Notes under the pieces: generated by a model
What the model was told of the DNA's origin: nothing
Databases searched by the model: none
The model's input: the letters and a program-made list of their open reading frames with translations, nothing else
Program-made: the position numbers and the translations under genes
Shown here: piece by piece, positions 6,859 to 64,000 of the stretch
Numbering within the stretch: position 1 is the stretch's first letter
How the letters are laid out: every line of letters begins with the position of its first letter
Source: Propionispira arboris
GTDB lineage: Bacteria > Bacillota > Negativicutes > Selenomonadales > Selenomonadaceae
Reading direction: 5' to 3'
NCBI RefSeq assembly: GCF_900109225.1
Contig: NZ_FNZK01000005.1
Location: 62,001 to 126,000 of the forward strand
Length of the DNA: 64,000 bases

Positions 6859-6957
6859 CCGATATTTAAACGAATGAATCGGCTGTGTTACAGTGGAATT
6901 GATTTTATAAAAAACTAGAGTGTTGCGTATAAGGTTGAATTTTTGGGAGTGAATTGT

Positions 6958-9567: not shown

Positions 9568-9589
9568 AGAAATCATAGGGGGCTGCAAC

Positions 9590-10414
9590 ATGCCAGAGTT
9601 ACCGGAGGTCGAAATCATCAGACGGAGTTTGGTGGATAAATTAAAAAACAGACAGATTATCAATACGAAAATCGATTTACCACGTCTTATCAAGTGGCCA
9701 AACCTGACAGGGTTTCAGTCTAGGGTTATAGGGAGATCTATTGTTGATATGACGCGGCAGGGTAAATATTTACTTATTGCCCTTGATAATGGCAATTTAA
9801 TCGTGTTCCATCTGCGCATGACGGGTCGGCTGCGGTATCTTGATAGTGGAACCTCAGGTGATCCGTATACCAGGATTGTGTTCCAACTTGATAATGGGGC
9901 AATCCTGGTGTATGCAGACACTAGGACACTGGGAACTGTTTATGCGCTTTTACCAGGGGAAGCATGGCGTATATCCGGTCTTTCGACGATGGGGCCGGAA
10001 CCTTTGTCGGCTGAATTTACAATTGTTTACTTGACAAGTCTGTTAGAGAAAAGCCGTGGTAAGATTAAATCGTTTTTATTGAATCAGAAATATATTGGAG
10101 GTCTGGGGAACATTTATGCAGATGAATGTTTGGCTCTGGCAAAGATTTATCCGGAAAGAATCGGTGCTAGTCTCACGAGCGCGGAAATCACAGCCTTATA
10201 TGGGGCTATTAACCAAGTAATCACCGATGGTATTCGCGATGGCGGCACGACTTTTCGTGATTATCGGGATGGAAATGGTGAAAAAGGACATCATCAAGAG
10301 CACTTATTGGTTTATGGAAGAACCGGAAAACCTTGCCATAATTGTAATGCATTGATACAGAAGATTGAAGTGGGCGGCAGGGGCACGCATTTTTGTCCAC
10401 AGTGTCAAAAATAG
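9590..10414 (+). CDS. mutM: formamidopyrimidine-DNA glycosylase (Fpg)
   Basis: A 274-residue bifunctional glycosylase/AP lyase that removes 8-oxoguanine. It starts with the catalytic Pro-Glu of MPELPEVE, has the helix-two-turn-helix LLNQKYIGGLGNIYADE, and ends with the zinc finger (CHNC...CPQC). The ribosome site AGGGGG lies upstream. It sits 22 nt after polA, so base excision and repair synthesis are probably co-transcribed. Confidence 0.97.
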   Translation: MPELPEVEIIRRSLVDKLKNRQIINTKIDLPRLIKWPNLTGFQSRVIGRSIVDMTRQGKYLLIALDNGNLIVFHLRMTGRLRYLDSGTSGDPYTRIVFQLDNGAILVYADTRTLGTVYALLPGEAWRISGLSTMGPEPLSAEFTIVYLTSLLEKSRGKIKSFLLNQKYIGGLGNIYADECLALAKIYPERIGASLTSAEITALYGAINQVITDGIRDGGTTFRDYRDGNGEKGHHQEHLLVYGRTGKPCHNCNALIQKIEVGGRGTHFCPQCQK

Positions 10415-10431
10415 GAGGCGTAGTTTTAAAT

Positions 10432-11028
10432 ATGTTTGTTATTGGTTTAACCGGAGGTATTGCTAGCGGGAAAAGTACGGTTTCTAAAATTTTGGCGCAG
10501 GCAGGGGCCCATATTATTGATGCAGACAAGATAGCTCACGACGTCGTGATGCCAAACCAGCTGGCTTGGCAAAAAATTGTGAGTCATTTTGGTATGTCGA
10601 CAATTCTGGAGAACGGACAGTTAGACCGGGCTGCTCTGGGAGCAACGGTTTTTTCGAATCCGGCTCAGCGTAAATGGCTGGAAGAACTTATTCACCCGTT
10701 TGTTCGGGCGGCTATTGAAAAAAAAATTCAAGTCTGGAATGCAGAAAAAAAAGAAATTGTTGTTTTGGACATTCCACTTTTATATGAAGCTGGCTGGGAT
10801 ACCTTAGCAGATGAAACTTGGGTGGTCTCGGTAGATACAGCTACTCAGCTGAAACGGCTGGTGCAAAGAGATCGACTTTCTCTCATGCAGGCTCAAAAAA
10901 GAATTGATTCACAAATGCCGCTTATAGAAAAAGTGAAGCGCGCAGACTATGTGATTGATAATATGTTTGATTTGGCAAAGACAAGAGAACAGGTATTAAA
11001 ACGCTGGAATCAGATTCGAAAGAGGTGA
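10432..11028 (+). CDS. coaE: dephospho-CoA kinase
   Basis: Last step of CoA synthesis. The protein opens with MFVIGLTGGIASGKSTV (P-loop GIASGKS), followed by ADKIAHDVV and VLDIPLLYEAGW, all CoaE signatures. At 198 residues it has the usual length. The ATG at 10432 lies behind AGGAGG (10412-10416 region, slightly long spacing); the longer in-frame opening inside mutM has no ribosome site. Confidence 0.95.
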   Translation: MFVIGLTGGIASGKSTVSKILAQAGAHIIDADKIAHDVVMPNQLAWQKIVSHFGMSTILENGQLDRAALGATVFSNPAQRKWLEELIHPFVRAAIEKKIQVWNAEKKEIVVLDIPLLYEAGWDTLADETWVVSVDTATQLKRLVQRDRLSLMQAQKRIDSQMPLIEKVKRADYVIDNMFDLAKTREQVLKRWNQIRKR

Positions 11029-11037
11029 ACGGAGGCA

Positions 11038-11640
11038 ATGGATAATGTGATGAGTCGTAGTTCAAGAAGCCGTGCGGTTAAAATTTCAAGCCGCCGTGTT
11101 TTATTTATAAGCAGTGTGATTTTATTTATCTGTATATACCTTGGCGTTCAATCGAATTGGTTCCAAAAAAAATATGTATATCCATATCCTTATCAAAATG
11201 TGATTGCACAATATGCAAAGTCACATAATTTAGAAACACATTTAGTTGCTGGTGTTATTATGAGTGAAAGTAAATTTCAAGATGAAGTGCATTCAGATAC
11301 AGGGGCGATTGGTCTGATGCAGGTAATGCCTGAAACAGCAGAGTGGATTGCACAACAAATTGATGAACCGTCTTTTTCGGTTGAAAAATTACATGATCCT
11401 GATACAAATATTCGTTTTGGTACATGGTACTTGTCTTCTCTGCAAAAAGAATTTTGCGGGAATGAAGTTCTGATGCTGGCTGCCTACAATGCTGGGCGGG
11501 GGAATGTTCATGAATGGATGGATAAGTATGGTTGGGATATGAATTTTAAGGATATTAATCAGATTCCTTATCAGGAAACACGTGAGTATGTAACGCGTGT
11601 TTTGAAAAATGAAACGAAATATCGCAGCTTATATCGATAA
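11038..11640 (+). CDS. membrane-anchored lytic transglycosylase (SLT/GH23)
   Basis: The 200-residue protein has a basic N-terminus and one membrane anchor (about residues 20-40), followed by a soluble-lytic-transglycosylase domain. SLT motifs are present: the catalytic Glu in GVIMSESKF, AIGLMQVMPETA, and LMLAAYNAGRGNV. It cleaves peptidoglycan glycan strands outside the membrane. The ATG lies 5 nt after CGGAGG and 9 nt after coaE. Confidence 0.92.
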   Translation: MDNVMSRSSRSRAVKISSRRVLFISSVILFICIYLGVQSNWFQKKYVYPYPYQNVIAQYAKSHNLETHLVAGVIMSESKFQDEVHSDTGAIGLMQVMPETAEWIAQQIDEPSFSVEKLHDPDTNIRFGTWYLSSLQKEFCGNEVLMLAAYNAGRGNVHEWMDKYGWDMNFKDINQIPYQETREYVTRVLKNETKYRSLYR

Positions 11641-11644
11641 TGAA

Positions 11645-11673
11645 TTGACAATGGCTGTTTACCATGGTATTAT
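11645..11673 (+). promoter_or_regulatory. pyr operon promoter P1
   Basis: TTGACA (11645-11650), 17 nt, TATTAT (11668-11673). Transcription would begin just before the first PyrR-type leader. Confidence 0.75.
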
Positions 11674-11698
11674 GATAAAAGTATAATATTTGTAAGTG

Positions 11699-11731
11699 CC
11701 TTTAAGTATCGGTCCTGTGAGGCTGAGAAGG
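11699..11731 (+). promoter_or_regulatory. PyrR binding loop 1 (anti-antiterminator)
   Basis: The stretch contains CCTTTAAG, then GGTCCTGTGAGGCTG, then AAGG, matching the established PyrR recognition pattern ARUCCNGNGAGGYU within its flanking CCTTTAA/AAGG stem. PyrR with UMP would stabilise this hairpin, hide the GGAAAGCT antiterminator strand (about 11730-11737) and let the terminator at 11763 form. Confidence 0.85.
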
Positions 11732-11762
11732 AAAGCTTTTTTTATGTTAGTATAGCTTAGCT

Positions 11763-11798
11763 AGCTTTCTCATGTCTTCATATGGGAAAGCTTTTTTT
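11763..11798 (+). terminator. pyr attenuator terminator 1
   Basis: AGCTTTCTCAT pairs with ATGGGAAAGCT (one G-U), followed by seven T. Its 5' arm can instead pair with GGAAAGCT at 11730-11737 to form the antiterminator. Confidence 0.88.
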
Positions 11799-11827
11799 GT
11801 ATATTCATACAAAAAAATAGATTTTGG

Positions 11828-11857
11828 TTGAAAGTTTATGCACAAATAAGGTATAAT
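11828..11857 (+). promoter_or_regulatory. pyr operon promoter P2 (between attenuators)
   Basis: TTGAAA (11828-11833), 18 nt, TATAAT (11852-11857). It lies downstream of attenuator 1 and upstream of PyrR loop 2, so transcripts from it would meet only the second attenuator. Confidence 0.6.
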
Positions 11858-11933
11858 TATTTATAGTTCCTGTGAAGTAAGACCAATACGGTGAATAAAA
11901 AGTAGTTATAGCTTTATGATTGACAGATACGAT

Positions 11934-11964
11934 CCTTTAAGTGATCCAGAGAGGTTGGCTAAGG
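11934..11964 (+). promoter_or_regulatory. PyrR binding loop 2 (anti-antiterminator)
   Basis: A second PyrR motif: CCTTTAAG, then GATCCAGAGAGGTTG, then AAGG. Its 3' end (GGCTAAGGAG, 11957-11966) can pair with CTTCTTGCC of the next terminator (one bulge, one G-U), giving the antiterminator/anti-antiterminator switch. Confidence 0.87.
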
Positions 11965-12006
11965 AGTGTGTAGGGTAAGCAATTTCCAAAATTGCAGCAC
12001 CAATAT

Positions 12007-12039
12007 AACTTCTTGCCGCCGGTAAGAAGTTTATTTTTT
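12007..12039 (+). terminator. pyr attenuator terminator 2, before pyrB
   Basis: AACTTCTTGCC / GGTAAGAAGTT hairpin with a 3-nt loop, then TTATTTTTT. It ends 19 nt before the pyrB start and is the immediate gate to the operon. Confidence 0.88.
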
Positions 12040-12057
12040 ATTAGAGGAGTGATTGGT

Positions 12058-13017
12058 TTGAGTAAAAACAACGTATCCTTAAGTGGAAAAAGTATTCTTG
12101 GTTTAGAATATTTTAATGCAGATGAAATTCAGTTGGTGCTTGAAACAGCAAAGGAAATGAAAAATATCATCAATCGTGATATTAAAAAAGTTCCTACATT
12201 ACGTGGGAAATCAATTGTAAATTTATTTTATGAACCGAGTACAAGAACGAGAAGTTCCTTTGAATTAGCCGGCAAATATTTGGGGGCCGATGTCATTAAT
12301 ATCACCGCTGGCACAAGTAGTATCGTAAAAGGTGAAAGTCTCCGCGATACCTTGCTTACCGTTGAAGCCATGGGGGTAGATGCGATTGTAATGCGGCATA
12401 AATCAGAAGGTGCTGCAGAATATGCACATCAAGTCGTCAAACCAGCCATTATCAATGCGGGTGATGGAGCACATGCGCATCCATCACAAGGACTTTTGAA
12501 TTTATTTACAATTGCTCAGCATAAAAAAACCTTAAAAGGCTTGAAAGTCGCCATCCTTGGTGATATTTTACATAGCCGGGTAGCGCGTTCTGACATATGG
12601 GGAATGCGTAAGATGGGAATGGAAGTTCATCTTGCCGGACCGAAAACATTATTGCCGAGATTTTTAACCACAGAAAAAGGGCTTTTCGTCCATGATCGTA
12701 TTGAGGAAGCAATTGAGGCGGCCGATGTAATCAATGTACTTCGTATCCAGCTCGAAAGACAAAAATCAGGGTTGTTTCCATCACCTCGTGAATATGCAAG
12801 AATTTTTGGCTTGAATCGTGAACGGCTGGCTGGAGCGAAAGACGATGTACTTGTATTGCATCCGGGACCGATGAATAAAGGTCTTGAAATTTCACCCGAT
12901 GTCGCTTATTCAGATCATTCGGCAATTCAGGAACAAGTGCAAAATGGTGTTGCAGTCCGTATGGCTTTGTTGACTTTAGTTTTGATGGGAGGAAAAAATC
13001 TTGAAATTAATGCTTAA
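12058..13017 (+). CDS. pyrB: aspartate carbamoyltransferase catalytic subunit
   Basis: The enzyme condenses carbamoyl phosphate with aspartate. It carries the carbamoyl-phosphate motif FYEPSTRTRSSFE, the aspartate-side motif HPGPMNKGLEI, and the HPSQGLL block. The start is TTG 12058, eight nt after GAGGAG. The frame remains open upstream, but that region is the attenuator hairpin and is not coding. The product is about 319 residues. No pyrI regulatory subunit is visible. The 3' end overlaps pyrC by 17 nt, implying translational coupling. Confidence 0.96.
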   Translation: MSKNNVSLSGKSILGLEYFNADEIQLVLETAKEMKNIINRDIKKVPTLRGKSIVNLFYEPSTRTRSSFELAGKYLGADVINITAGTSSIVKGESLRDTLLTVEAMGVDAIVMRHKSEGAAEYAHQVVKPAIINAGDGAHAHPSQGLLNLFTIAQHKKTLKGLKVAILGDILHSRVARSDIWGMRKMGMEVHLAGPKTLLPRFLTTEKGLFVHDRIEEAIEAADVINVLRIQLERQKSGLFPSPREYARIFGLNRERLAGAKDDVLVLHPGPMNKGLEISPDVAYSDHSAIQEQVQNGVAVRMALLTLVLMGGKNLEINA

Positions 13018-14290
13018 GGGTGGACGCATAATCAATCCAGGTAAAAATTTTGATCAAATTGGTGATGTTTTAATAGAAAATGGAAAAATTAAAGAAATCG
13101 GTGTTGATTTAAAACCAGAGGATGCCACAATTATTGAAGCAGATGGTTTGGTTGTTACACCGGGCTTGATTGATATGCATGTACATTTGCGTGAACCTGG
13201 TCAGGAAGCAAAAGAAGATTTTTCTTCGGGATCAAAAGCGGCAGCTGCCGGTGGATATACGAGAATTGCTTGTATGCCAAATACAAAACCGGTTGTTGAT
13301 AATGCGATTTTAGTGAATGGATTAAAAGAAAGAGCGCGGCAGGCAGCGGTGGTTCATATTGATATCATTGGAGCTTTGACTAAAAATCAAAAAGGTACAG
13401 AACTTGCTGAAGTTGGGGATATGACACAAGCTGGGGCAGTGGCTTTTTCAGATGATGGACATTACGTACAAAGCTCTAAAGTCCTGCTAAATGGACTGGA
13501 TTATCTGCGTACGTTTGATAAACGAATTATTTCTCATGCGGAAGAAACTACTTTGGTAGAAGATGGTATTATGAATGAAGGCTATCGGTCAGCGATGCTC
13601 GGAATGAAAGGACGTCCAACTGTAGCCGAAGATATTGCTGTCGCCAGAGATATTTTACTCGCCGAATATGCGGATGCAAAAATCCATATCGCACATATTA
13701 GCTCGAAAAATGCAGTGGAAATTGTCCGCCAGGCGAAAAAACGCGGGGTGAAAGTTACAGCGGAAGTAACGCCGCAGCATCTTACGATGACAGATGATCT
13801 GGTAAATGCATTCAATACATCAACAAAAGTGAATCCCCCCCTTCGTTCGAAAGAACATTTGACAGCAATGCTTGAGGGGCTTAAAGATGGAACGATTGAT
13901 GCGATTGTAACCGATCATTCACCACATGCCTATGAAGAAAAAGATGTTGAATACAATTATGCACCAAGCGGATTTCCCGGACTTGAAACGGCAGTGGGGA
14001 TTTTGCTGACCGATTTGTATCATGAAGGAAAGCTGGATTTACCTAAAATTATTGAAAAAATGACGTATGGTCCAGCCCAAACCTTTGATTTAAACGCAGG
14101 TGTACTTGAAGTTGGCGCAGCAGCGGATGTCACCATCATTGATCCCAATCTGAACTGGACTGTTGATGCTGAAAAGTTTTATACACGCGGCACACATTCT
14201 CCCTTTGTTGGCAGACAATTAAAAGGAAAAGCAGTTATGACCATCGTTGATGGTAAGATTGTTATGAAAGATGGCAAAATTATCGATTGA
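13001..14290 (+). CDS. pyrC: dihydroorotase
   Basis: A 429-residue class I dihydroorotase of the amidohydrolase superfamily. It has the metal motif DMHVHLREPG, a FSDDGH block, HISS, and TDHSPH with the catalytic Asp. It starts at TTG 13001, eight nt after GGGAGG inside the end of pyrB. It cyclises carbamoyl-aspartate to dihydroorotate. Confidence 0.96.
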   Translation: MKLMLKGGRIINPGKNFDQIGDVLIENGKIKEIGVDLKPEDATIIEADGLVVTPGLIDMHVHLREPGQEAKEDFSSGSKAAAAGGYTRIACMPNTKPVVDNAILVNGLKERARQAAVVHIDIIGALTKNQKGTELAEVGDMTQAGAVAFSDDGHYVQSSKVLLNGLDYLRTFDKRIISHAEETTLVEDGIMNEGYRSAMLGMKGRPTVAEDIAVARDILLAEYADAKIHIAHISSKNAVEIVRQAKKRGVKVTAEVTPQHLTMTDDLVNAFNTSTKVNPPLRSKEHLTAMLEGLKDGTIDAIVTDHSPHAYEEKDVEYNYAPSGFPGLETAVGILLTDLYHEGKLDLPKIIEKMTYGPAQTFDLNAGVLEVGAAADVTIIDPNLNWTVDAEKFYTRGTHSPFVGRQLKGKAVMTIVDGKIVMKDGKIID

Positions 14291-46903: not shown

Positions 46904-48265
46904 ATGAAGTTGAAAACAAGCTTATTTGGAAACGTGTATTCGTTTCGCGATGTGAAAGATGTGCTGGCTAAAGCAAATGAAGAAAAATCTGGTGATGTGC
47001 TGGCAGGTATTGCGGCACAAAATACAGTTGAGCGCGTTGCGGCAAAAGTGGTTTTGGCGGATATGACGTTGGAGAATCTGAGGAAAAATCCTGTTGTTCC
47101 CTATGAAATAGATGATGTTACCCGAGCAGATCAGGACGCACTGGATATAGAGGTCTTTCAAAAAATAAAGTCATTAACCGTAGGGGAGTTTCGTGAGTTT
47201 TTACTCAGTGCTGACGAAGCCGATATAGCGGCAATACGTCCCGGACTTACGGCAGAAATGATCGCAGGCGTTGCAAAACTTATGAGCAATATGGATCTTG
47301 TTTGTGCATCTGCTAAAATGCATGTCACAGCAACCTGTAATACAACCATTGGGCGAGCGGGAACTTTATCGGCTCGTTTACAGCCAAATCATGCTACGGA
47401 TAATATATCTGGCATCATGGCTTCCCTAATGGAAGGTCTAAGTTATGGTGTGGGCGATGCAGTCATTGGGTTAAATCCAGCGGTTGACTCTATTGGCAGC
47501 GTAGCTGCCGTACTAACCGAGTTTAAAAATTTCATGAATAAATGGAAAATCCCAACACAAAACTGCGTGTTGTCGCACGTCACGACGCAGATGAAAATTT
47601 TAGAAAAAAATGCAGCACCAATGGATCTGATGTTTCAAAGTTTGGCGGGTTCGGAAATTGCCAGCAGGGCTTTTGGCATCAATGTTAAACTCATGGATGA
47701 AGCTTATGCGATGATGAAAGAGCGGAAAAGTTCATTGGGACCTAATTTCATGTACTTTGAAACAGGTCAGGGGTCTGAACTTTCATCCGATGGACATCAT
47801 GGAGCCGATCAATTAGTTATGGAGGCACGCTGTTATGCGTTTGCAAAACGCTATAATCCTTTTCTTGTAAATACAGTAGTTGGGTTTATTGGTCCGGAAT
47901 ATCTTTATGATGGGCGTCAGATGATTCGGGCGGGACTTGAAGATCATTTTATGGGAAAACTTACTGGTCTGTCGATGGGGGTTGATGTATGTTATACAAA
48001 CCATATGAAGGCAGATCAGAACGACTTAGAGAATTTAGCAATGATGCTGACTTTGGCCGATTGCAATTATATTATGGGAATACCGGGAGGTGATGATGTT
48101 ATGCTCATGTATCAGACGACGAGTTATCATGATGCAGCAGCTTTGAGAAAAATCGGACACAAAAAAACGATTGCAGAATTTGATCAACGTATGGAAGAAT
48201 TGGGTATCTTTAAAAATGGTCAATTGACCGAAAAAGCTGGAGATCCATCTATATTCATGGTGTAA
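46904..48265 (+). CDS. eutB: ethanolamine ammonia-lyase large subunit
   Basis: A 453-residue TIM-barrel subunit carrying the substrate site. It splits ethanolamine to acetaldehyde and ammonia with adenosylcobalamin. EutB blocks such as ANEEKSGDVLAGIAA, GRAGTLSARLQPNHATDNI, FETGQGSELSSDGHHG and NYIMGIPGGDDVMLMYQT are present. ATG 46904 follows AAGGAGG. Confidence 0.97.
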   Translation: MKLKTSLFGNVYSFRDVKDVLAKANEEKSGDVLAGIAAQNTVERVAAKVVLADMTLENLRKNPVVPYEIDDVTRADQDALDIEVFQKIKSLTVGEFREFLLSADEADIAAIRPGLTAEMIAGVAKLMSNMDLVCASAKMHVTATCNTTIGRAGTLSARLQPNHATDNISGIMASLMEGLSYGVGDAVIGLNPAVDSIGSVAAVLTEFKNFMNKWKIPTQNCVLSHVTTQMKILEKNAAPMDLMFQSLAGSEIASRAFGINVKLMDEAYAMMKERKSSLGPNFMYFETGQGSELSSDGHHGADQLVMEARCYAFAKRYNPFLVNTVVGFIGPEYLYDGRQMIRAGLEDHFMGKLTGLSMGVDVCYTNHMKADQNDLENLAMMLTLADCNYIMGIPGGDDVMLMYQTTSYHDAAALRKIGHKKTIAEFDQRMEELGIFKNGQLTEKAGDPSIFMV

Positions 48266-48327
48266 TATGGATTGCAATAAACGAAAAATATGCTCATACT
48301 TTGAGCACCAGAAAGGTATGATTAAAA

Positions 48328-49095
48328 ATGGAAGAATTCGTTCGAGATATCTCTTTACCGGAAATAAAAGAAAAAGTGTTGGTCGATAAGCCAGTTAGTA
48401 TGGAGAATTGTCAGCGACTTAAAAAGACAACCAATGCTCGTATTTGTGTGGGAAGAGCCGGCGAACGATTTAAAACGGAAACCTTATTGAAATTTCGTGC
48501 GGATCATGCAATTGCAATGGATACCGTATGGTCCTATGTTGATGAAAAAATTGTTGATCGGTTGGGTTTTTATAAAATACAAACAATGGTAAAAGACAAA
48601 GAAGAGTATATTCGTCGCCCTGACTTAGGTCGGATTTTTGCACCGGAAACGATGCAGGCAATCAAGAAAGATTGTATTCAGCAGCCCGATGTGCAAATTA
48701 TTGCTGCAGATGGGTTGAGTGCCTATGCAATTAATGCCAATTTAGAAGATATTTATTCGATTATGCTGGATGGTTTTGTGGAAAAAGGTTATTCGGTGGG
48801 GACGCCTATTTTTGTGAAATATAGTAGAGTGGCAACAATGGATAAGATCAGTGAGGCTTTGGGGGCTAAGGTAACCATTCAATTCATTGGTGAACGACCA
48901 GGTCTGGCTACCGGTGAAAGTATGAGTGTCTACATGGCTTATGAAGCCAGTTCACAAAAACCGGAATCGCAGCGTACGGTTGTATCCAATATCTATAAAG
49001 ATGGGATTCCGTCGGTGGAGGCTGGTGCGCAAATTGTTTATCTGACAGAAGTTTTAATGCGGGAAAAGAAAAGCGGTGTCGAGCTTAAAATATAA
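48328..49095 (+). CDS. eutC: ethanolamine ammonia-lyase small subunit
   Basis: A 255-residue cobalamin-binding subunit. It has RICVGRAGERFKTETLL, ADGLSAYAINAN and FIGERPGLATGESMSVYM blocks. Length is in the shorter range, without the N-terminal extension that targets some EutC proteins into microcompartments, which agrees with the absence of shell genes here. ATG 48328. Confidence 0.95.
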   Translation: MEEFVRDISLPEIKEKVLVDKPVSMENCQRLKKTTNARICVGRAGERFKTETLLKFRADHAIAMDTVWSYVDEKIVDRLGFYKIQTMVKDKEEYIRRPDLGRIFAPETMQAIKKDCIQQPDVQIIAADGLSAYAINANLEDIYSIMLDGFVEKGYSVGTPIFVKYSRVATMDKISEALGAKVTIQFIGERPGLATGESMSVYMAYEASSQKPESQRTVVSNIYKDGIPSVEAGAQIVYLTEVLMREKKSGVELKI

Positions 49096-53630: not shown

Positions 53631-54488
53631 ATGCTTACTAATTTCAGTAGAACCTGCGAACTAGCTGACGGACAAGAATCTGAATACCTCAAGCTTTTGT
53701 ATTATGACCTTTCCCCAATGAATGCTGATTATAAAACATATGAATCCCATAGACTTTGTACCATCCTGGCTGGCTCGAAGCATATTTCTGTTAATGGGGA
53801 TTTGAATTTCACTTATTATCCTGGACAATTTATATTGCTGCCACCTTATTCAAAAGTTCAAATGAAAATTGATACTTCGACAAAAGCACTGGTTTTTGTG
53901 TTGAGCAAGGAACTACTTAAAAAAGTAACTGAGAAAATAAGTATTGATCTAAATACCGATTATGATTTGCTAGCTGAAAGCAGATTCTTTCACGGTGATA
54001 TCACGAATGAAATGGGGATCTGTCTGAACAAGTTTCCCGGTATTGCTACAATTTATAATAAAAACAAAGAATTCCTACTTGATCTTTACGCGCAGGAATT
54101 GATTTATTATTTAGTAAAAATAAAAGGTGTCCAACAGGTGATTAACCTTGAACATGATAATCCTATATATAAGGCAATCAAATATATTCAGAATAACATT
54201 AAACATCCGATCAGTATTAATCAGCTAGCACATGATTTGAATATGTCGGAGAGTAATTTTTCTAATTCATTCAAAAAAATCATGAATATTACACCTAGTG
54301 AATATATTAGAAATCTTAAGCTTATTACAGCAAAAGAAATGCTGAAAACTCAAAATGTTACGGAAGTGGCATATAATTTAGGTTATGATAATATTTCACA
54401 CTTTATAGCAATTTTTAAGAATAAATATGGCATCACACCAAAACAGTATCAAAGCATTGGTGTTGGACCCGTAATTTTTAAAACTTGA
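53631..54488 (+). CDS. AraC-family transcriptional regulator
   Basis: The 285-residue protein has an N-terminal cupin-like sensing domain (GSKHISVNGDLNFTYYPGQFILLPPYS) and a C-terminal pair of helix-turn-helix motifs (ISINQLAHDLNMSESNFSNSFKK and VTEVAYNLGYDNISHFIAIFKNKYGITPKQY). It lies just upstream of the AOR-hydrogenase locus in the same direction and may control it, though a terminator and 350 nt separate them. ATG 53631 follows AGAGGTGA. Confidence 0.9.
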   Translation: MLTNFSRTCELADGQESEYLKLLYYDLSPMNADYKTYESHRLCTILAGSKHISVNGDLNFTYYPGQFILLPPYSKVQMKIDTSTKALVFVLSKELLKKVTEKISIDLNTDYDLLAESRFFHGDITNEMGICLNKFPGIATIYNKNKEFLLDLYAQELIYYLVKIKGVQQVINLEHDNPIYKAIKYIQNNIKHPISINQLAHDLNMSESNFSNSFKKIMNITPSEYIRNLKLITAKEMLKTQNVTEVAYNLGYDNISHFIAIFKNKYGITPKQYQSIGVGPVIFKT

Positions 54489-54957: not shown

Positions 54958-55434
54958 ATGGGTAAAATATTAACAATTTCTCCTGACAAGTGCACAAACT
55001 GTAGAAGTTGCGAATTAGCCTGTTCTTTTAATAAAATAGGTGAATTCAACCCGAGAGAATCAGCGGTAAATGTCTTGTTTTATGAAGAAGCCGCAATTTC
55101 AGTGCCTATCATGTGCATGCAGTGCGAAGACCCGGCATGTGCAAAGGTATGCCCGGTAGGAGCATTTTCAAGAGATAAAAACGGGGCTGTTATATCTGAT
55201 CCGAAAAAATGCATCGTTTGCAAACTATGTATCAGTGCCTGTCCTATGGGGAATATCTCCGTTAGCTCTGCTACGAAAAAAATTGTCAAGTGCACCCTGT
55301 GCGACGGTGATCCGTCATGTGCAAAAGTATGCCCTTCCGGGGCAATTAAGTATGAAGATGCAAATACGGGCAACATAAGCAAGAAAAAAATTATTGCAGA
55401 AAAGTTTAAAGACTTGTTTGCGGAGGTGGAATAA
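54958..55434 (+). CDS. AOR-associated polyferredoxin (four [4Fe-4S] clusters)
   Basis: A 158-residue soluble protein with four cysteine groups: [37 protein letters not shown] and [15 protein letters not shown]. This is typical for the electron-transfer subunit encoded directly before tungsten aldehyde oxidoreductases. It would carry electrons from AOR to a partner, plausibly the hydrogenase downstream. The start is uncertain: the excellent AAGGAGG (54914-54920) lies 37 nt before ATG 54958 and 19 nt before GTG 54940. An ATC codon at 54931 in the same frame has ideal spacing. Confidence 0.85.
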
Positions 55435-55436
55435 TA

Positions 55437-57239
55437 ATGTACGGTTGGATGGGAAAACTCATACGCGTTAATTTGGCAAAAGGCACCATTTCAACGGAGC
55501 CTTTGAATATGCAGGATGCGAAGCTCTATGTTGGGGGCAGGGGTCTTGGTACAAAAATCTATATGAATGAAGTTGATCCCAAAGTGGATCCGCTAAGTCC
55601 CGAAAACAAGATGATCTTTATAACCGGACCACTAACGGGAACTCTTGCCGCATGTGCTGGTAGATATGAGGTAGTGGCAAAGGCACCGTTGACGGGTACA
55701 ATCGGAGCGTGTAACTCTGGTGGACATTTTGGACCTGAATTGAAGTTTGCGGGGTATGACGGAATTATCTTTGAAGGCAAAGCCGAGAAGCCTGTTTACT
55801 TGTATATCAATGATGATCAAATTGAGCTTAGAGACGCAAGTCATCTTTGGGGCAAAGAAGTTCCCGCAACGACAGACGAAGTGATCAAAGAAACCGATGA
55901 AGATGTTAAAGTTGCCTGTATTGGACCAGCGGGTGAAAAGCTGGTATTATTTGCTGTAATTATGAACGATAAAAACCGCGCGGCAGGACGTTCCGGGCTT
56001 GGTGCTGTAATGGGCTCCAAAAACCTGAAGGCGATTGCTGTAAGAGGCACAAAATCAATTAAGGTTGCACAACAAAAAGAATTTATGGATCATTGTTTGA
56101 AATCAAAGCAAATGATGAAAGACAATCCAGTCACGGGCGCGGGGTTACCTGCCTACGGAACACAGATACTGGTAAATATTCTGAACCAGTCAGGGGCACA
56201 TCCAACGAGGAACTGGCAGCATTCTTACTATGACAAAGCGGACGACATCAGCGGCGAAACACTTGCAAAGAAACATCTTGTACGGAACAGAGGCTGTTTT
56301 GACTGCTCGATTGGCTGCGGCCGGGTTACGAAAATTGAGAGATCACAGTTTACTAACTTTGGTGAAGGTCCTGAATATGAGGCAGGCTGGTCGTTTGGGT
56401 CGGACTGTGACAACAATGATTTACAATCTGTCTGTGAAGCAAATTTTTTGTGCAATGAAATCGGTATGGATCCTATTACAATGGGCGCAACTATAGCATG
56501 CGCCATGGAACTGTACGAACAAGGTTATATCACCAAAAAAGACATTGGCATGGATTTACCTTTTGGTAATGCTGAAGCGGTTGTTAAGCTTACGAAAATG
56601 ACCGGCTACCGGGAAGGATTCGGAGACAAGTTAGCACTGGGGTCATACAGAATGGCGGATGGATTCGGACATCCAGAACTATCAATGTCTGTTAAAAAGC
56701 AAGAAATGCCGGCCTACGATGGGCGTGCTATGCAGGGAATGGGTCTTGAATACGCTACTTCCAACCGAGGCGGCTGTCATGTCCGAGGGTATATGACATC
56801 TCCTGAAATTCTTGGAATACCTGTTAAGATGGATCCGCTGGTAACGGAAGGCAAGGCAGCAACGCTTAAAATTTTTCAGGATTTAACGGCGGTTGTAGAT
56901 TCTGTAGGAATGTGCCTTTTTACCACATTCGCAATCGGCTTGCCAGAGATTGCAGACATGTATAGGACTTGTACAGGTTTGGATTATACCGATGAAGAAG
57001 TGCTCCAGATTGGTGAACGAATTTGGAATCTCGAGAAAATCTTCAACCTGAAAAGTGGCTTTTCAAAAAAGGATGACACCCTGCCGCCGCGTCTTTTAAA
57101 GGAGCCTGTTGCCGAGGGCCCTGCAAAAGGGATGGTAACTAAGTTGGATGTTATGCTTCCTGAATACTATGAACTAAGAGGCTGGGATAAGGAAGGTGTC
57201 CCAACAGAAGCAAAGAAAAAAGAGCTTGGCATAGTATAA
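55437..57239 (+). CDS. aor: tungsten-dependent aldehyde ferredoxin oxidoreductase (AOR family)
   Basis: The 600-residue protein oxidises aldehydes to carboxylic acids with a tungstopterin. The N-terminal AOR domain has [47 protein letters not shown] and [19 protein letters not shown]. The cluster ligands are C287-x2-C290-x3-C294 (GCFDCSIGC) and C493 (GMCLF). Substrate range is not determinable: acetaldehyde, aromatic aldehydes or others. ATG 55437 follows CGGAGGTG and is two nt after the polyferredoxin gene. Confidence 0.94.
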
Positions 57240-57400: not shown

Positions 57401-60400
57401 TTGAACGTATTGTCATTATTCGGCGTAATACTGCTATTGATTTTCGAAGTTTTGGCAGTAATGAAGACAAAAAAATTAATGCAATTACTGATCTATTCTT
57501 CAATTGCGGAAGTAGGATATATCTTGCTTGGAATCGGCAGCAATACATTTTCCGGTCAGACGGGCGGAATCTTACATCTGGAATATCAAATTCTAATGAG
57601 GGGTTTGGTATTTTTGGTAGCTTTTGTGCTCATCAAACGCAATGGAACGCAGTATATAGATAAGCTAAAGGGAGTAGGAACAACATCGCCGTATATGGCT
57701 ACGATGTTTGCGTTTGGCGTTTTTTCGGTAATGGGTCTATCACCGTTTAAGGGAGCTGTCAGCAAATTTCTGATTGTGTATTCCAATATTGAGGTTGGCA
57801 ATTATCTCTTTGCCGCCATTGCTGTATTGGGAAGCATTATAGAAGCATGGTATTTCATTTGTATTTTACACATTATTTGTTTTGCTGAAGCAGAAGGAAA
57901 AGTGCAGAACAACGATTCTACTTCTGTTTTGTTTCAAAGAGTTACCAATGTTATTGTAACAATTCTTGTAGTTTTGACAGCGCTAACTTCACTCTTCCCG
58001 GATACGCTGATTCATTTCAGTGAGAATTTGGCGAAACTTTTGTTTGGAGCTGCAAATTTAACCGAATTACCAGTTTTTGATACCCCGTGGCCGTTGGTGG
58101 TTTTGATACCTTATATCGGTGCTTTTGCCGTATTTCTGATTGGCTATTTTCTACCGAAGCTGAGAGGAATCTCTGCGGTCGGTGTCAGCGCAGCAACGGT
58201 AGTCTGCATTTTGCTGGATGGGAATATCGACGGACTATCCAAGTTGTTTGCGCTGATTATATCAGTTATTATCTTTTTGGTTTCCCTGTATTCCATTGGA
58301 TATTTCAAAGGGGAGTCACACAATAACCGCTACTTTTTCTTCCTGCTGCTGACGTTGGGCAGTCTGATCGGTGTTGCCACGAGTACACAGTTCGGCAATT
58401 TCTATGTGTTTTGGGAATTGATGACGTGGTCATCTTATCTGCTAATCGTGCAGGAACCTTCGGAGAAAGCTCTTAAAGCCGGTTTCAAGTACTTTATGAT
58501 GTGTACTTCTGGTGCTTATGTCATGCAGTACGGGATTCTGCTTTTGCAAAAGAATACCGGTACGCTGGACATGCAGGCTGTTTCCAGACAACTGTCTACT
58601 CTGCCCCCTGGTCTGCTGATTTTAATTTTGATTTTGTTTCTGATTGGTACCGGCGTTAAAGCGGGTCTTGTCCCGCTTCATAGTTGGCTTCCAGAAGCAC
58701 ATCCCGCGGCTCCGTCGCCGGTTTCATCGCTTCTATCTGGTATCCTGACTAAGATCGGTGTTTATGGGATTATTCGTGTATTGTTTGTCGTTTTCGGAGT
58801 AGGGCTTCTCAACCAATTGGGATCCATAGGTGAATATTCTTATGTTGGGATGGCAATCTCCCTTGTGGGATTGATTACGTTGTTTTACGGCGAGATTATG
58901 GCATTGCTTCAGAAAGATGCGAAACGGCTGCTTGCTTATTCCACGATGGCTCAGATTGGTGAGATTATTACCACTCTTGGGCTGGGTACTTATTTAAGTA
59001 TCGTTGCCAGTCTGTATCACGTCATGAATCATGCCATTATGAAAGGATTGCTGTTCCTTGCCATAGGCGCGTTGGTTTATCGCCTGAAAACACGGGAAAT
59101 TAAAGCGTTTAAAGGAATTGGCAGAGCAATGCCGGTAACGGCTGGATGTATGTCAATCGGGCTCATGGCAATCATGGGCTTGCCTCCGTTTAACGGATTC
59201 ATCAGTAAATTTCTGATGCTTTATGCCGCTGTCAATGCCGGGTACTGGTATATTGCAGCTTTGATTCTTCTTGGAAGTGTGATTGCGGCAGTTTACTATA
59301 TTAAGTTGATTAGAACGGTGTTTTTTGAAAAATATGAAGGGCCTTCTGTTAAGGAAGCACCTTTAATCATGTTGATTCCAATGGGTTTGCTTACCAGTCT
59401 GGTTGTTTTCAATGGGCTGTTTCCACAATATGGACTGGAGCTGGTTGTTCCCGCGGCAAATTATGTTGCGGCACAAGGCGGCATGGCGATTGTGGCGATT
59501 CCCCAGATACAGGTGACTTGGCCGGTTATCATTGCCATTCCGATGCTCGGCGGTTTGCTGGTCTACTTTTTGGGCAAACGTTCCCCGCAGGTCGCAGGTT
59601 GGATTTCTGTGGCTGTGATGTCTGCTACACTTGTAGCGATTGCAGTTTCTCGCGCGGATTTTGATGTTTATTCTTTGAGTTTTGCCCTTTTAATTGCATT
59701 TGTCGGGTTGTTGAATCTCCTGTATTCTTTGGGATATATGGGACATGGTCATGCACAGAACCGCTATTATATGTTCTTCTTAATGATGATCGGCGGATTA
59801 ATTGGCGTGGCAACCAGCAAAGACTTTTTCTCATTTTTCATCTTTTGGGAAATTATGAGTAGCTGGACGCTGTATTTTTCCATCATCCACGAGGAAACGG
59901 AGGGTGCGCTCAAAGAAGGTTTCAAATATTTTATTTTTAACTATATTGGAGCAAGCATCGCGTTTTTGGGTATTCTGATTCTTACCTCGAATACAGGCGT
60001 CTTTGACATGATGACGCTTGCAAAACGCATGCAAGAAATGGATCTTGGCACGGCAGGTTTCGGCATTGCTCTCATTACTGTCGGATTTTTGATGAAAGCC
60101 GCTGCGCTTCCTTTTCGCATCGACTATCAAATGCATCCGTCGACGGCTCCGACCCCTGTCAGTGGATATATATCATCCGTCCTTCTGAAAAGCGCTCCAT
60201 ATGGGCTCATTAAGCTGTTCTTTATCATGGGTGGCACCGCTGTTGTCGCACGGCTTGGATTGCTCGGCGGCAGTCCGGTTATGCTGAATGTAGTCGCTTG
60301 GATTGCTGGTCTTACGATTCTATATGCAGGTGCGATGGCATTGGCTCAGAGGGGAATTAAACGGCTGTTGATTTACAGCACCGTCAGCCAAATCGGCTAT

Positions 60401-61210
60401 ATTGTCCTTGGTTTGAGCCTTGATTCCACGCTCGGATTAACGGGTGCGCTGCTGCATTTTGTCAATCATATGTTTTTCAAGGATCTATTGTTCCTTGCAG
60501 CGGGCGCAATTATGGTACAGGCTCATGCCAAAAATTTGGATGACGTTACTGGTTTGGGAAGAAAGATGCCCGTTACGCTAACCTTTTTTATGGTAGGCGC
60601 TTTGTCGCTGGCTGGTGTACCGCCGTTCAGTGGTTTCACATCCAAATGGGTTATTTACGAAGCCTGTATGCAGAATGGACAGGTCGTCCTCGCAATCCTG
60701 TCACTGGTCGGAAGTGTCTTTACTATGGCATATTTTGTTAAATTCATGCATTCTGCTTTCTTTGGTATTCCATCAAAGAATTCCGAGAACGTGAAGGAAG
60801 CTCCGTGGACGATGCTGGTTCCCATGGGAGTACTGTCAGCCGTAAGCATTGTTTTCGGCATTATGCCCGGAATTCCAATATCTGTCATATCACAAGTGCT
60901 GGCTTTGGCAGGAATTGCTGCACCATCTTATTCGTTGTTTCAGGTCGATACACCGCTTGGTACATGGCAGGCTGGCACAATTACGATGATTCTCCTGTTG
61001 GCATTTCTTGTCGGTCTGGTATTCTTGTTTTCTGGAAATAAGAAGGTTCGGTATACGGATGCTTATACCTGCGGCGTAACTGACCTTGATCCGGATCAGA
61101 TCAATCCGGCCGCTCAGAATTTGTTTGAAACTCCTGTAAAACTGGTAAAAAAAATGCACAAGGCAATTGTTTCAATTTTTGGTAATGACGAGGAGGCAGA
61201 GGAAAAATGA
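57401..61210 (+). CDS. giant fused antiporter-like subunit of the membrane hydrogenase (about 2.5 NuoL/MrpD-type modules)
   Basis: A 1,269-residue membrane protein. Residues 1 to about 215 resemble only the C-terminal half of a NuoN/MrpD antiporter (LLIYSSIAEVGYILLGI, LSPFKGAVSKFL with Lys122). Residues about 226-690 are a full module with Glu339 (FWELMTW), Lys420 (GVKAGLVPLHSWLPEAHP) and Lys603 (GFISKFL). Residues about 705-1190 are another with Glu817 (FWEIMSSW), Lys899 (LMKAAALPF) and Lys1082 (GFTSKWV). A hydrophilic tail follows. These are the proton/sodium channel residues of complex I. TTG 57401 is eight nt after AGGGGGG. The stop overlaps the next gene. Confidence 0.88.
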   Translation: MNVLSLFGVILLLIFEVLAVMKTKKLMQLLIYSSIAEVGYILLGIGSNTFSGQTGGILHLEYQILMRGLVFLVAFVLIKRNGTQYIDKLKGVGTTSPYMATMFAFGVFSVMGLSPFKGAVSKFLIVYSNIEVGNYLFAAIAVLGSIIEAWYFICILHIICFAEAEGKVQNNDSTSVLFQRVTNVIVTILVVLTALTSLFPDTLIHFSENLAKLLFGAANLTELPVFDTPWPLVVLIPYIGAFAVFLIGYFLPKLRGISAVGVSAATVVCILLDGNIDGLSKLFALIISVIIFLVSLYSIGYFKGESHNNRYFFFLLLTLGSLIGVATSTQFGNFYVFWELMTWSSYLLIVQEPSEKALKAGFKYFMMCTSGAYVMQYGILLLQKNTGTLDMQAVSRQLSTLPPGLLILILILFLIGTGVKAGLVPLHSWLPEAHPAAPSPVSSLLSGILTKIGVYGIIRVLFVVFGVGLLNQLGSIGEYSYVGMAISLVGLITLFYGEIMALLQKDAKRLLAYSTMAQIGEIITTLGLGTYLSIVASLYHVMNHAIMKGLLFLAIGALVYRLKTREIKAFKGIGRAMPVTAGCMSIGLMAIMGLPPFNGFISKFLMLYAAVNAGYWYIAALILLGSVIAAVYYIKLIRTVFFEKYEGPSVKEAPLIMLIPMGLLTSLVVFNGLFPQYGLELVVPAANYVAAQGGMAIVAIPQIQVTWPVIIAIPMLGGLLVYFLGKRSPQVAGWISVAVMSATLVAIAVSRADFDVYSLSFALLIAFVGLLNLLYSLGYMGHGHAQNRYYMFFLMMIGGLIGVATSKDFFSFFIFWEIMSSWTLYFSIIHEETEGALKEGFKYFIFNYIGASIAFLGILILTSNTGVFDMMTLAKRMQEMDLGTAGFGIALITVGFLMKAAALPFRIDYQMHPSTAPTPVSGYISSVLLKSAPYGLIKLFFIMGGTAVVARLGLLGGSPVMLNVVAWIAGLTILYAGAMALAQRGIKRLLIYSTVSQIGYIVLGLSLDSTLGLTGALLHFVNHMFFKDLLFLAAGAIMVQAHAKNLDDVTGLGRKMPVTLTFFMVGALSLAGVPPFSGFTSKWVIYEACMQNGQVVLAILSLVGSVFTMAYFVKFMHSAFFGIPSKNSENVKEAPWTMLVPMGVLSAVSIVFGIMPGIPISVISQVLALAGIAAPSYSLFQVDTPLGTWQAGTITMILLLAFLVGLVFLFSGNKKVRYTDAYTCGVTDLDPDQINPAAQNLFETPVKLVKKMHKAIVSIFGNDEEAEEK

Positions 61211-62175
61211 ATGTAGCAGAATTTTTCGTTAATGTTTTTATTTTTCCCGGCGGCCTTTTTGCTATCATGCTTGGTTTACTTCTGACCGGTCTTGACCGTA
61301 AAATCTATGCCCGTCTGCAAAGACGCGTAGGGCCACCGATTTATCAGCCGTGGCTCGATGTCGTGAAACTTTCCCAGAAGGAGACGATCATTCCAAAAAC
61401 TGCCAACTACACTGCTTTTCGGTTGGCTCCATTGCTTGGTTTTGCGGGTATGCTGGCGGCGATAGCCATTATTCCGGTCACGGGGATTTATTCCGGGCTT
61501 TATCAGTCGGGCGACCTGCTGGTGGTCTTGTATCTGCTTTCTGCACCGGCGTTGGCGCTTGCCATGGGGGCCGCTGCCTCCGGTTCACCGTATAGTTCAA
61601 TTGGCCTTTCCCGAGAAATTTCGATCATGTTAGCGTATGAAATCCCTATGCTGATTGTTTTCTTAACGGTAGGAATGCGGGTCGGAATGGAGATCGGCGG
61701 CACAGCGATTTTCTCGCTGAGCAGCATTGTAAATTTTCAATTAAGCCAAGGCTCGTTGCTTCTGGATTTGCCGATGCTGCCCGCATTTTTGGCGTTCTTA
61801 ATATGCATTCCCGGTATCCTCGGAGTGGTGCCGTTCGATATTCCGGAAGCGGAAACAGAAATAACGGAAGGGCCTCTTTTGGAATATTCGGGCAGTGGGC
61901 TCGCCATGTTTAAGCTAACTGGTGGATTGAAAATGTTGGTTCTTTCGGCGCTCACCGTCGCCTTGTTTTTTCCGATGGGACTCGGAAGTTTTTGGCTGGT
62001 CAATCTTTTATGGTTCATTTTTAAGTGTGTAGTTATTATGTTCTTTACGACTACGCTGATTCGGGCGATGCAGGCAAGAATGCGGATTGAGCAGGCCTAC
62101 AAGTTTTACCTGCTGTTTCCGACTGCATTGGCGCTTATAAGTTTGGTTTTAACGGCGATATCTTTCAGAATATAG
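61207..62175 (+). CDS. group 4 hydrogenase membrane subunit (NuoH/HycD/EchB-like)
   Basis: A 322-residue protein with about eight membrane spans. It has the complex I subunit 1 motifs GLDRKIYARLQRRVGPPIYQPWLDVVKL, SREISIMLAYEIP and FDIPEAETEITEGPLLEYSG, the acidic loop that contacts the peripheral arm. It links the [NiFe] module to the antiporter subunit. ATG 61207 overlaps the preceding stop (ATGA). Confidence 0.93.
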   Translation: MNVAEFFVNVFIFPGGLFAIMLGLLLTGLDRKIYARLQRRVGPPIYQPWLDVVKLSQKETIIPKTANYTAFRLAPLLGFAGMLAAIAIIPVTGIYSGLYQSGDLLVVLYLLSAPALALAMGAAASGSPYSSIGLSREISIMLAYEIPMLIVFLTVGMRVGMEIGGTAIFSLSSIVNFQLSQGSLLLDLPMLPAFLAFLICIPGILGVVPFDIPEAETEITEGPLLEYSGSGLAMFKLTGGLKMLVLSALTVALFFPMGLGSFWLVNLLWFIFKCVVIMFFTTTLIRAMQARMRIEQAYKFYLLFPTALALISLVLTAISFRI

Positions 62176-62195
62176 GTTAGGGAGGCGAATTGATT

Positions 62196-62627
62196 ATGGG
62201 GGAATTGCTTCAAAATATCGTAAAGAAATCGCCCTGGATTTACCGCATCAATGCCGGCTCCTGCAATGGGTGTGACGTGGAAATGGCAACTACGGCATTG
62301 ATTCCCCGGTACGATGTGGAACGGCTCGGGTGCCGCTACTGCGGCAGTCCGAAACATGCGGATATTGTCCTGATTTCTGGACCGGTTACAGCGGTTGTGA
62401 AGGATAAGGTTTTGCGTGTTTATGATGAAATTCCAAATCCAAAGGTCGTTGTGGCGGTTGGCATATGTCCTATATCGGGCGGTGTTTTCCGTGAGAGTTA
62501 TTCCATTGCGAACCAGCTGGATGCATATATTCCCGTAGACGTGAATGTTCCCGGATGTCCTCCGCGGCCGCAGGCAATTATCGACGGGATTGCCATGGCA
62601 ATCGAAATCTGGAGAAAGAAGTTCTAA
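62196..62627 (+). CDS. group 4 [NiFe] hydrogenase small subunit (NuoB/EchC-like)
   Basis: A 143-residue subunit holding the proximal [4Fe-4S] cluster next to the NiFe site. The ligand pattern is seen as GSCNGCDVE, VGICPISGG and PGCPPRP. An extra CRYCGSP pair is present, as in several energy-converting hydrogenases. ATG 62196 is ten nt after GGAGG; TTG 62190 is closer and less likely. Confidence 0.93.
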   Translation: MGELLQNIVKKSPWIYRINAGSCNGCDVEMATTALIPRYDVERLGCRYCGSPKHADIVLISGPVTAVVKDKVLRVYDEIPNPKVVVAVGICPISGGVFRESYSIANQLDAYIPVDVNVPGCPPRPQAIIDGIAMAIEIWRKKF

Positions 62628-62639
62628 GGAGGGATATAC

Positions 62640-63152
62640 TTGAGTAAATTTTTAAAAGTCATTCTCAAAAATCTCATCAAAGGCCCGTCTACTATCAAAT
62701 ATCCCTTTGAAGATTCCCCCGCGCCCGAAAAACTGCGGGGAAAGATCGTGCATAATGCTGATGCCTGTGTGGCCTGCCATCTGTGTGAATATGTCTGCGC
62801 GGGCGGAGCCATCAAGATGCAGGAGTCAGAAGATAAAAAAGGTATTGATTTTGTTGTGTGGCACGATACCTGCACCTTCTGTGGCCTTTGTGAATATTAC
62901 TGTCCAACCAAAGCGATTCATCTGACAAATGATTATCATACCGCGCATTTGCAAGCGGATAAATACAATTATGTTGAAAAGACTTTTGTTAAAAAGCAGC
63001 CCTGTACCTGCTGCGGAGAACCGATTGTGCCGATTTCACTGGCAATGGTGGAACAAATTTACGGCAAGGAAGGCGACATCAGAGGTTTGAGCAAAATGTG
63101 TCCACAATGCCGCAGGAAAATTCTATGGAAAGGTGGCGTGTCCAAACTATGA
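62640..63152 (+). CDS. group 4 hydrogenase ferredoxin subunit (NuoI/EchF-like)
   Basis: A 170-residue protein with two [4Fe-4S] motifs, CVACHLCEYVC and CTFCGLCEYYCP, forming the electron wire from ferredoxin. The C-terminus has a further CTCCGEP...CPQCRRK set that could bind zinc or an additional cluster. TTG 62640 follows AAGGAGGG. Confidence 0.92.
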   Translation: MSKFLKVILKNLIKGPSTIKYPFEDSPAPEKLRGKIVHNADACVACHLCEYVCAGGAIKMQESEDKKGIDFVVWHDTCTFCGLCEYYCPTKAIHLTNDYHTAHLQADKYNYVEKTFVKKQPCTCCGEPIVPISLAMVEQIYGKEGDIRGLSKMCPQCRRKILWKGGVSKL

Positions 63153-63739
63153 AAAAAGAGGCAATGGATCAGTTTCAGAGCCTGTTGACGCAGACTTTAG
63201 GAGAAACATTCGAGCTGAAGTGGGATATCGACCGAAAAGGCGTTGTTTGTGGTTGGTGCAAATTGGCAGCTCCAGATGATATTGTAATAGTTGCGGAAGT
63301 TGTGGCAGAGCTCAAAGGGAGAGTCATGACGATTTCTCCGCTTAATACCCCGTCGCCGTTAGTTGAACAAGTGCCAGTCGATTCAGAAAATATGGAACAG
63401 GGAAAATCGATTCAGGTTGTCATAAATTATCATTTCTACTTTAATGAGATTAATTTGACGGCGGCGATCACCTTGCCGGATGACCAGAGAACCGTGAACT
63501 CAATTACTCCAATACTGCGCAGCGCAGATTGGCATGAGCGGGAAATGCAGGAGCTTTTCAATATCAAGCTTCAGGGGCATCCAAATCCGAAACGTTTGTT
63601 TCTGGATAAAGATATTTATATGCAAGACCATACGATGATTCCTCTGTCAGAAGCATTGAATGGTGCCAGCACCAATACTTTATGGGAACGGATTATGGAA
63701 GCCAACCAGAAGGGGGCGAATTCCGATGAGCACTTATAA
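63149..63739 (+). CDS. group 4 hydrogenase NuoC/EchD-like subunit
   Basis: A 196-residue soluble subunit. The 30-kDa complex I signature appears as LRSADWHEREMQELFNIKLQGHPNPKRLFLD near residues 130-165, with a ligand-free connecting domain before it. ATG 63149 overlaps the preceding stop (ATGA) and follows AAGGTGG; the longer upstream frame inside the ferredoxin gene is not needed. It overlaps the large-subunit gene by 14 nt. Confidence 0.9.
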   Translation: MKKEAMDQFQSLLTQTLGETFELKWDIDRKGVVCGWCKLAAPDDIVIVAEVVAELKGRVMTISPLNTPSPLVEQVPVDSENMEQGKSIQVVINYHFYFNEINLTAAITLPDDQRTVNSITPILRSADWHEREMQELFNIKLQGHPNPKRLFLDKDIYMQDHTMIPLSEALNGASTNTLWERIMEANQKGANSDEHL

Positions 63740-64000
63740 TATCCCCATTGGACCGATCCATGTGGTATTGGAAGAACCTATTTATTTTAAACTTCAGGTG
63801 GACGGGGAAACCGTTGTCGGTCTTGATATCAACGCGGGCCATGTACACCGTGGAATTGAATTTCTCACGATGCAGAGAAACTTTTATCAGAATCTGACGC
63901 TGACGGAACGAGTTTGTTCCCTTTGCTCCAATAACCATCCCTTTACCTATTGTATGGCATTGGAAAAGCTGGCAGGCATCCAGATACCGGTAAGAGCCGA
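63726..64000 (+). CDS. group 4 [NiFe] hydrogenase large subunit (NuoD/EchE-like), 3' end beyond window
   Basis: Only the first 91 residues are seen. The N-terminus IPIGPIHVVLEEPIYFKLQVD and VDINAGHVHRGIE-like segment match the NuoD/EchE family. The motif ERVCSLCSNNHP provides the first pair of NiFe-ligand cysteines (CxxC), which true complex I lacks. This favours a genuine group 4 [NiFe] hydrogenase over a NiFe-free relative. The C-terminal CxxC needed to prove it is outside the window. ATG 63726 lies inside the preceding gene's end. Confidence 0.9.
   Translation, partial: MSTYNIPIGPIHVVLEEPIYFKLQVDGETVVGLDINAGHVHRGIEFLTMQRNFYQNLTLTERVCSLCSNNHPFTYCMALEKLAGIQIPVRA

Follow-up and report, generated by a model that had tools for sequence, protein, structure and literature searches.

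The membrane subunit CooM of the CO-linked hydrogenase CooMKLXUH has been described from Rhodospirillum rubrum, Rubrivivax gelatinosus, Carboxydothermus, and Citrobacter Y19, where it is a single giant protein of approximately 1255–1263 aa (PMC4257681, PMC5371261). The Rubrivivax protein is 1255 aa long with 29–33 predicted transmembrane (TM) segments (PMC4257681), and that of Citrobacter Y19 is encoded by 3789 bp and runs at 136 kDa on gels (PMC5371261). Tungsten oxidoreductases were sorted in 2026 into five classes, none of which has a hydrogenase (PMC13328260). The window analyzed here, a 64,000-nucleotide stretch of Propionispira arboris DNA, carries genes of both kinds (Table 1). While CooM and its fusion are known, a Coo hydrogenase beside a tungsten aldehyde oxidoreductase (AOR) instead of a CO dehydrogenase (CODH) looks new; no description of an AOR-Coo hydrogenase operon was found in the open-access literature.

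Reading frame and identity of the 1269-residue protein

The frame at 57401–61210 (+ strand) is open from its TTG start, immediately preceded by the Shine-Dalgarno-like AAAGGGGGG, through 1269 codons to the stop. The first-pass annotation had described it as two and a half antiporter modules in one uninterrupted frame, and its coordinates and frame proved exact. It also expected two full matches and one partial match to PF00361, and the search gave these: three stretches (whole-protein E-value 2.6e-125) at profile positions 142–293 (partial, E 4e-17), 6–293 (E 3e-62), and 1–294 (E 1e-52). The stop-to-stop frame is just 1287 aa, which leaves no room upstream for a first half of the N-terminal module; approximately 160 bp lie between AorB and CooM. 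A frameshift or assembly artefact was ruled out because the same architecture, which the annotation suggested looking for elsewhere, is intact in independent genomes (83, 72, 69, and 54–59% identity). Open-frame lengths of 978–1761 aa pointed to still longer fusions, but the 1761-aa case (L123) turned out to be separate tandem genes. No plasmid copy of CooM was full length.

CooM is followed by NuoH-, NuoB-, NuoI-, NuoC-, and NuoD-like genes, then by HypA and a fused HypC-HypD. This order, M-K-L-X-U-H and then hypA, is that of a CO-linked group 4 hydrogenase. It identifies the 1269-residue protein as CooM and thus as the membrane pump of a group 4 [NiFe] hydrogenase of the CooMKLXUH type, in agreement with the hydrogenase-linked complex first proposed. 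The NuoD-like CooH keeps both NiFe-binding Cys pairs (RVCSLC, and DPCISCTER at the extreme C-terminus), a pattern seen in 31/31 CooH sequences, which marks it as a hydrogenase and not a quinone enzyme. Wherever their contigs extend far enough, all 25 full-length CooM orthologs have K-L-X-U-H next to them. Similar to the classical system in subunit size and operon order, the window locus differs in having AorA-AorB upstream instead of CooF-CooS, in a genome with no detected CODH, and in the fused HypC/HypD downstream. The fused protein (425 aa; L010 1694–2971, just past the window end) also occurs at L040 and L042 and, by match span, at L061 and L112.

Table 1. Features of the AOR-Coo locus, in window coordinates.
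Feature	Coordinates	Strand	Remarks
AraC-family regulator beside operon	53631..54488	+	66–77% identity in L040, L042, L043
AorA-type polyferredoxin (WorS), 16 Cys; probable electron link, CooF counterpart	54958..55434	+	matches 9mqx_E, 8c0z_C
AorB, aldehyde:ferredoxin oxidoreductase large subunit (WorL, tungsten family)	55437..57239	+	PF01314/PF02730; 9mqx_D, 1aor, 8c0z_A; same position in L040, L042
CooM, antiporter-like membrane subunit, 1269 aa	57401..61210	+	TTG start, stop included; orthologs L040-L046, L052, L060, L061, L104-L122
CooM N-terminal half-module, ~residues 1–200, ~TM10–14 of NuoL/MrpD module	57401..58000	+	Q63/R67 replace TM11 His/Lys; TM12 K122 kept; MbhH 284–476
CooM full module M1, residues 229–695	58085..59485	+	complete channel residue set; predicted fold
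CooM full module M2, residues 703–1165	59507..60895	+	complete channel residue set; retained in natural 1.5-module CooMs
CooM C-terminal tail, residues 1166–1269	60896..61207	+	conservation lower
CooK, NuoH-like membrane subunit	61207..62175	+	PF00146; syntenic in all Coo loci
CooL, NuoB-like hydrogenase small subunit	62190..62627	+	PF01058; 64–95% identity to other CooL
CooX, NuoI-like	62640..63152	+	two [4Fe-4S] motifs
CooU, NuoC-like	63098..63739	+	PF00329
CooH, [NiFe] large subunit, start; past window end, whole in L010 227–1309	63726..64000	+	RVCSLC, C-terminal DPCISCTER

Modules homologous to those of CooM, and with the same Glu/Lys/His residues in the channel, occur in EchA, HycC, HyfB, HyfD, HyfF, MbhH, NuoL, NuoM, NuoN, MrpA, and MrpD, but with one module per polypeptide, whereas CooM has 2.5 (or 1.5) per chain; among solved structures, MbhH matches both the whole of CooM and its half-module best. 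In complex I and Mrp the antiporter modules are separate subunits, in contrast to the single chain of CooM. The first-pass annotation was correct on this point, and in the window genome, too, the modules of complex I and of a Hyf-like hydrogenase are encoded by separate genes. That Hyf-like hydrogenase belongs to a second group 4-type operon of the same genome (L012, contig C14, ~6388–13902). The annotation went too far, however, in treating the fusion as something unusual: the published sizes show it to be how a known protein ordinarily occurs (PMC4257681, PMC5371261), found across Bacillota, Thermodesulfobacteriota, and Campylobacterota. More unusual than the fusion is what lies directly upstream: genes for a tungsten-type aldehyde oxidoreductase, whereas in the CO system the partner is CODH.

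The distribution of CooM is sporadic, with full-length relatives in Selenomonadaceae, Bacillaceae, other Bacillota, Desulfovibrionaceae, and Campylobacterales. An even sample of the query's phylum (398 genomes) yielded full-length CooM in the query genome and nine others, while among 299 genomes of the order of Bacillus DNRA2, and among 391 of the class of L041, it was present in the queried genome only.

Aldehyde oxidoreductase genes in place of CO dehydrogenase

AorA and AorB have the same two-subunit core as the class II tungsten oxidoreductases (WorL+WorS) and Aromatoleum AorABC, and both match chains of solved AORs. The sequence features of the class II core are present: AorB has AFOR_N, AFOR_C, and the [4Fe-4S] motif C287xxCxxxC, and AorA has four clusters with 16 Cys. 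Unlike those systems, the window has no NAD-binding AorC/WorN, and the pair adjoins a [NiFe] energy-converting hydrogenase. The order AorA-AorB-CooMKLXUH-HypA-HypCD is conserved in three genomes from Selenomonadaceae and Bacillaceae (the window genome, Megamonas UBA1799, and Bacillus DNRA2). The AOR-linked arrangement was found only in these three, plus one genome (L043/L062) with the related AOR on another contig; the AraC regulator is common to the AOR-linked loci and L043. At L041 (612–6732, some bases masked), an AorA-like ferredoxin, a Mo aldehyde/xanthine-oxidase-type enzyme, a GltD-like protein, and a CCG protein precede CooM, and this Mo enzyme is a third partner type for the Coo hydrogenase.

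Downstream of the operon lie MoeB-, MoaA-, MOSC-, TupABC-, and MoeA-like genes, named from reading their translations. They include two different tandem MoeA-type genes downstream of a tungstate-type ABC transporter (L010 7890–11066). The presence of two MoeA copies has been read as pointing to the use of both W and Mo cofactors (PMC13328260). The transporter and the two MoeA genes are suggestive only, and would fit tungsten as the active-site metal of AorB. Ethanolamine ammonia-lyase-like genes (46904–49095; EutB and EutC by sequence reading) lie approximately 6 kb upstream of the AOR genes; as a source of (acet)aldehyde they were rejected, the genes not being found at related loci.

At 12 sampled loci the coo operon runs on into CooF and CooS. 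The tree places the window clade inside the CODH-linked Coo hydrogenases, the fork joining it to two CODH-linked loci being supported at 100/100, so the partner was swapped, and horizontal transfer was probably involved. Two loci in the comparison show further variation: the CODH-type coo operon of L108 has no CooS match after CooF (after 13820), unlike its close relative L109, and at L046 (13140–14419, Campylobacterales) a second CooH-like gene with HypC-like and HypA-like genes lies downstream of the operon. In the window genome no CODH was detected, the only prismane-family match being hydroxylamine reductase. TIGR01702 remained below its cut-off in the window genome (G000), Megamonas UBA1799 (G024), and Bacillus DNRA2, with none in the genome of L041. 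The water-gas-shift arrangement, with CooS in the genome and CooF adjoining the hydrogenase, is replaced here by AorA-AorB upstream.

Because no CODH was found, AorA/AorB lie directly upstream in three genomes, and the clade is nested within CODH-linked CooMs, we propose an aldehyde-oxidizing, H2-evolving ion pump, and judge with some confidence that this hydrogenase most likely takes its input from a tungsten aldehyde oxidoreductase and not from CODH. The model is built on gene content and order, residue conservation, the lack of a detectable CODH, and the nesting among CODH-linked relatives. AorB would oxidize aldehyde to acid, and electrons would pass from AorB to AorA, in CooF's place, and on to CooX, CooL, and CooH, a path that we infer by homology together with its presumed direction. 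CooH would then reduce protons to H2, and the released energy would, again by homology, drive ion export via CooK and the two complete CooM channels. A stronger form of this proposal would be a membrane-bound aldehyde:hydrogen lyase, with the W-AOR wired directly into the CooMKLXUH proton pump. Here CODH, W-AOR, and Mo-hydroxylase-type enzymes would be exchangeable inputs, and CooM would have 1.5 or 2.5 modules, always with a half-module cap. For this stronger form we consider the chances about even.

Adjacency of the AorAB and Coo genes is no proof of one complex; free ferredoxin could instead be the electron acceptor of AorAB. The two enzymes might then share a locus and not a complex, the hydrogenase acting as a general ferredoxin-driven Ech, or in reverse, with H2 giving reduced ferredoxin for AorAB to convert acid to aldehyde. 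Class II tungsten oxidoreductases have been described as ferredoxin-dependent (PMC13328260), and acid reduction by the Aromatoleum AOR can draw its electrons from H2 (PMC9295118); moreover, Desulfovibrio-type Coo loci have no adjoining dehydrogenase, and the Coo genes and AOR of L043 are on different contigs. Nevertheless, AorA stands where CooF, the linker of the CODH complex, would be, and AorA, AorB, and CooM remain neighbors in both Selenomonadaceae and Bacillaceae. We regard such a separation of the two enzymes as unlikely, though worth keeping in mind. As for CODH itself, the window assembly is 97% complete in 40 contigs, so a missing CooS would be possible on this genome alone, but the near relative Megamonas UBA1799, scored 100% complete, is also without CooS. 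That a classical CO-driven hydrogenase has lost its CODH to gaps in the assembly, as its 40 contigs and the nesting of the hydrogenase genes among CODH-linked ones might allow, is highly improbable, given that no CODH exceeded the family cut-off in any of the genomes searched with TIGR01702 and that AOR genes occupy the operon instead.

Channel residues and the N-terminal half-module

The two full modules have the complete channel Glu/Lys sets ascribed to them in the first-pass annotation. In M1 the channel residues are E339 (TM5), K420 (TM7), K451 (TM8), H540/H544/K548 (TM11), and K603 (TM12), and in M2 they are E817, K899, K930, H1019/H1023/K1027, and K1082. The positions checked in each full module were the TM5 Glu and the Lys of TM6, TM7, TM8, TM11, and TM12, and all twelve (six each in M1 and M2) are invariant in 25/25 CooM orthologs. 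The TM labels follow the homology with NuoL/NuoM. AlphaFold2 models of CooM had a mean pLDDT of 80.6 (residues 1–700) and 75.3 (residues 1–1199). M1 is predicted to fold as a complete module, and MrpD, NuoM, and NuoN match it with Z 40–46 and rmsd 2.1–2.5 over ~440 residues; in the comparison of residues 1–1199, the matches listed cover mostly 229–835 and barely include M2 or the half-module. In a quick module tree with weak deep support, the M1s form one clade and the M2s another, and the two are not sisters; a recent internal duplication from M1 to M2 was rejected on this basis, weak deep branches notwithstanding.

The half-module, approximately TM10–14, has MbhH 284–476 as its best match. 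Q63 and R67 occupy its TM11 His and Lys positions in 25/25 orthologs, and K122 of TM12 is kept, in line with the earlier description of a module retaining only the distal Lys; across the orthologs this position is Lys in 19/25 and Arg in 6/25. Natural CooMs of 1.5 modules (793–823 aa) occur at L043 (9902–12373), L047, L049, L050, and L051, in two separate lineages, and the tree requires two CooM length changes. The L043 protein (823 aa) corresponds to window residues 480–1268 at 71% identity and belongs to the window's clade, and Desulfobulbales-type loci have CooMs of 793–811 aa. In both short lineages CooM starts at the same TM10 boundary, its exposed half no longer has the His/Lys pair of TM11, and the full module that remains is M2. 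From this retention and the common boundary we infer that M2 adjoins CooK and that the half-module caps the distal end.

Most likely the half-module does not pump but caps the membrane arm at its far end: it has neither the first half-channel nor the His/Lys pair of TM11, and all terminal half-modules, those of the two 1.5-module lineages among them, have lost this pair. It could instead be a functionless, degenerate relic of a third full module, as its lower conservation (0.23–0.77 identity to the window CooM, vs 0.46–0.85 for M1/M2) and the change of the TM12 Lys to Arg in 6/25 sequences would allow. We think this improbable, since Q63 and R67 are invariant in all 25 orthologs and two 1.5-module lineages share both the TM10 start and the loss of the TM11 pair, which suggests that the end piece is required.

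Energy yield and module number

The potential of the benzoate/benzaldehyde couple is −505 mV, vs −414 mV for H+/H2 (PMC9295118). Evolution of H2 from aldehyde would thus be downhill by approximately 18 kJ/mol under standard conditions. CO-driven H2 evolution yields a similar ~20 kJ/mol. Exporting a single proton costs about as much as these ~18 kJ/mol, so the presence of two full channels does not imply that two ions move per H2. The proposal that the fusion would fix the stoichiometry of ion channels per hydrogenase holds for the number of modules, which is fixed; the number of ions per H2 need not follow from it, and natural 1.5-module CooMs exist.

If the AOR-driven model is correct, anaerobes would conserve energy from aldehyde oxidation via H2 made directly at the membrane, and a group of tungsten oxidoreductases with almost no assigned physiological role would gain one. 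The constant half-module is a possible structural end cap, of a form absent from complex I and Mrp. Finally, the natural 1.5- and 2.5-module CooMs offer a direct handle on the number of ions pumped per antiporter module, a long-standing question for complex I-type enzymes.
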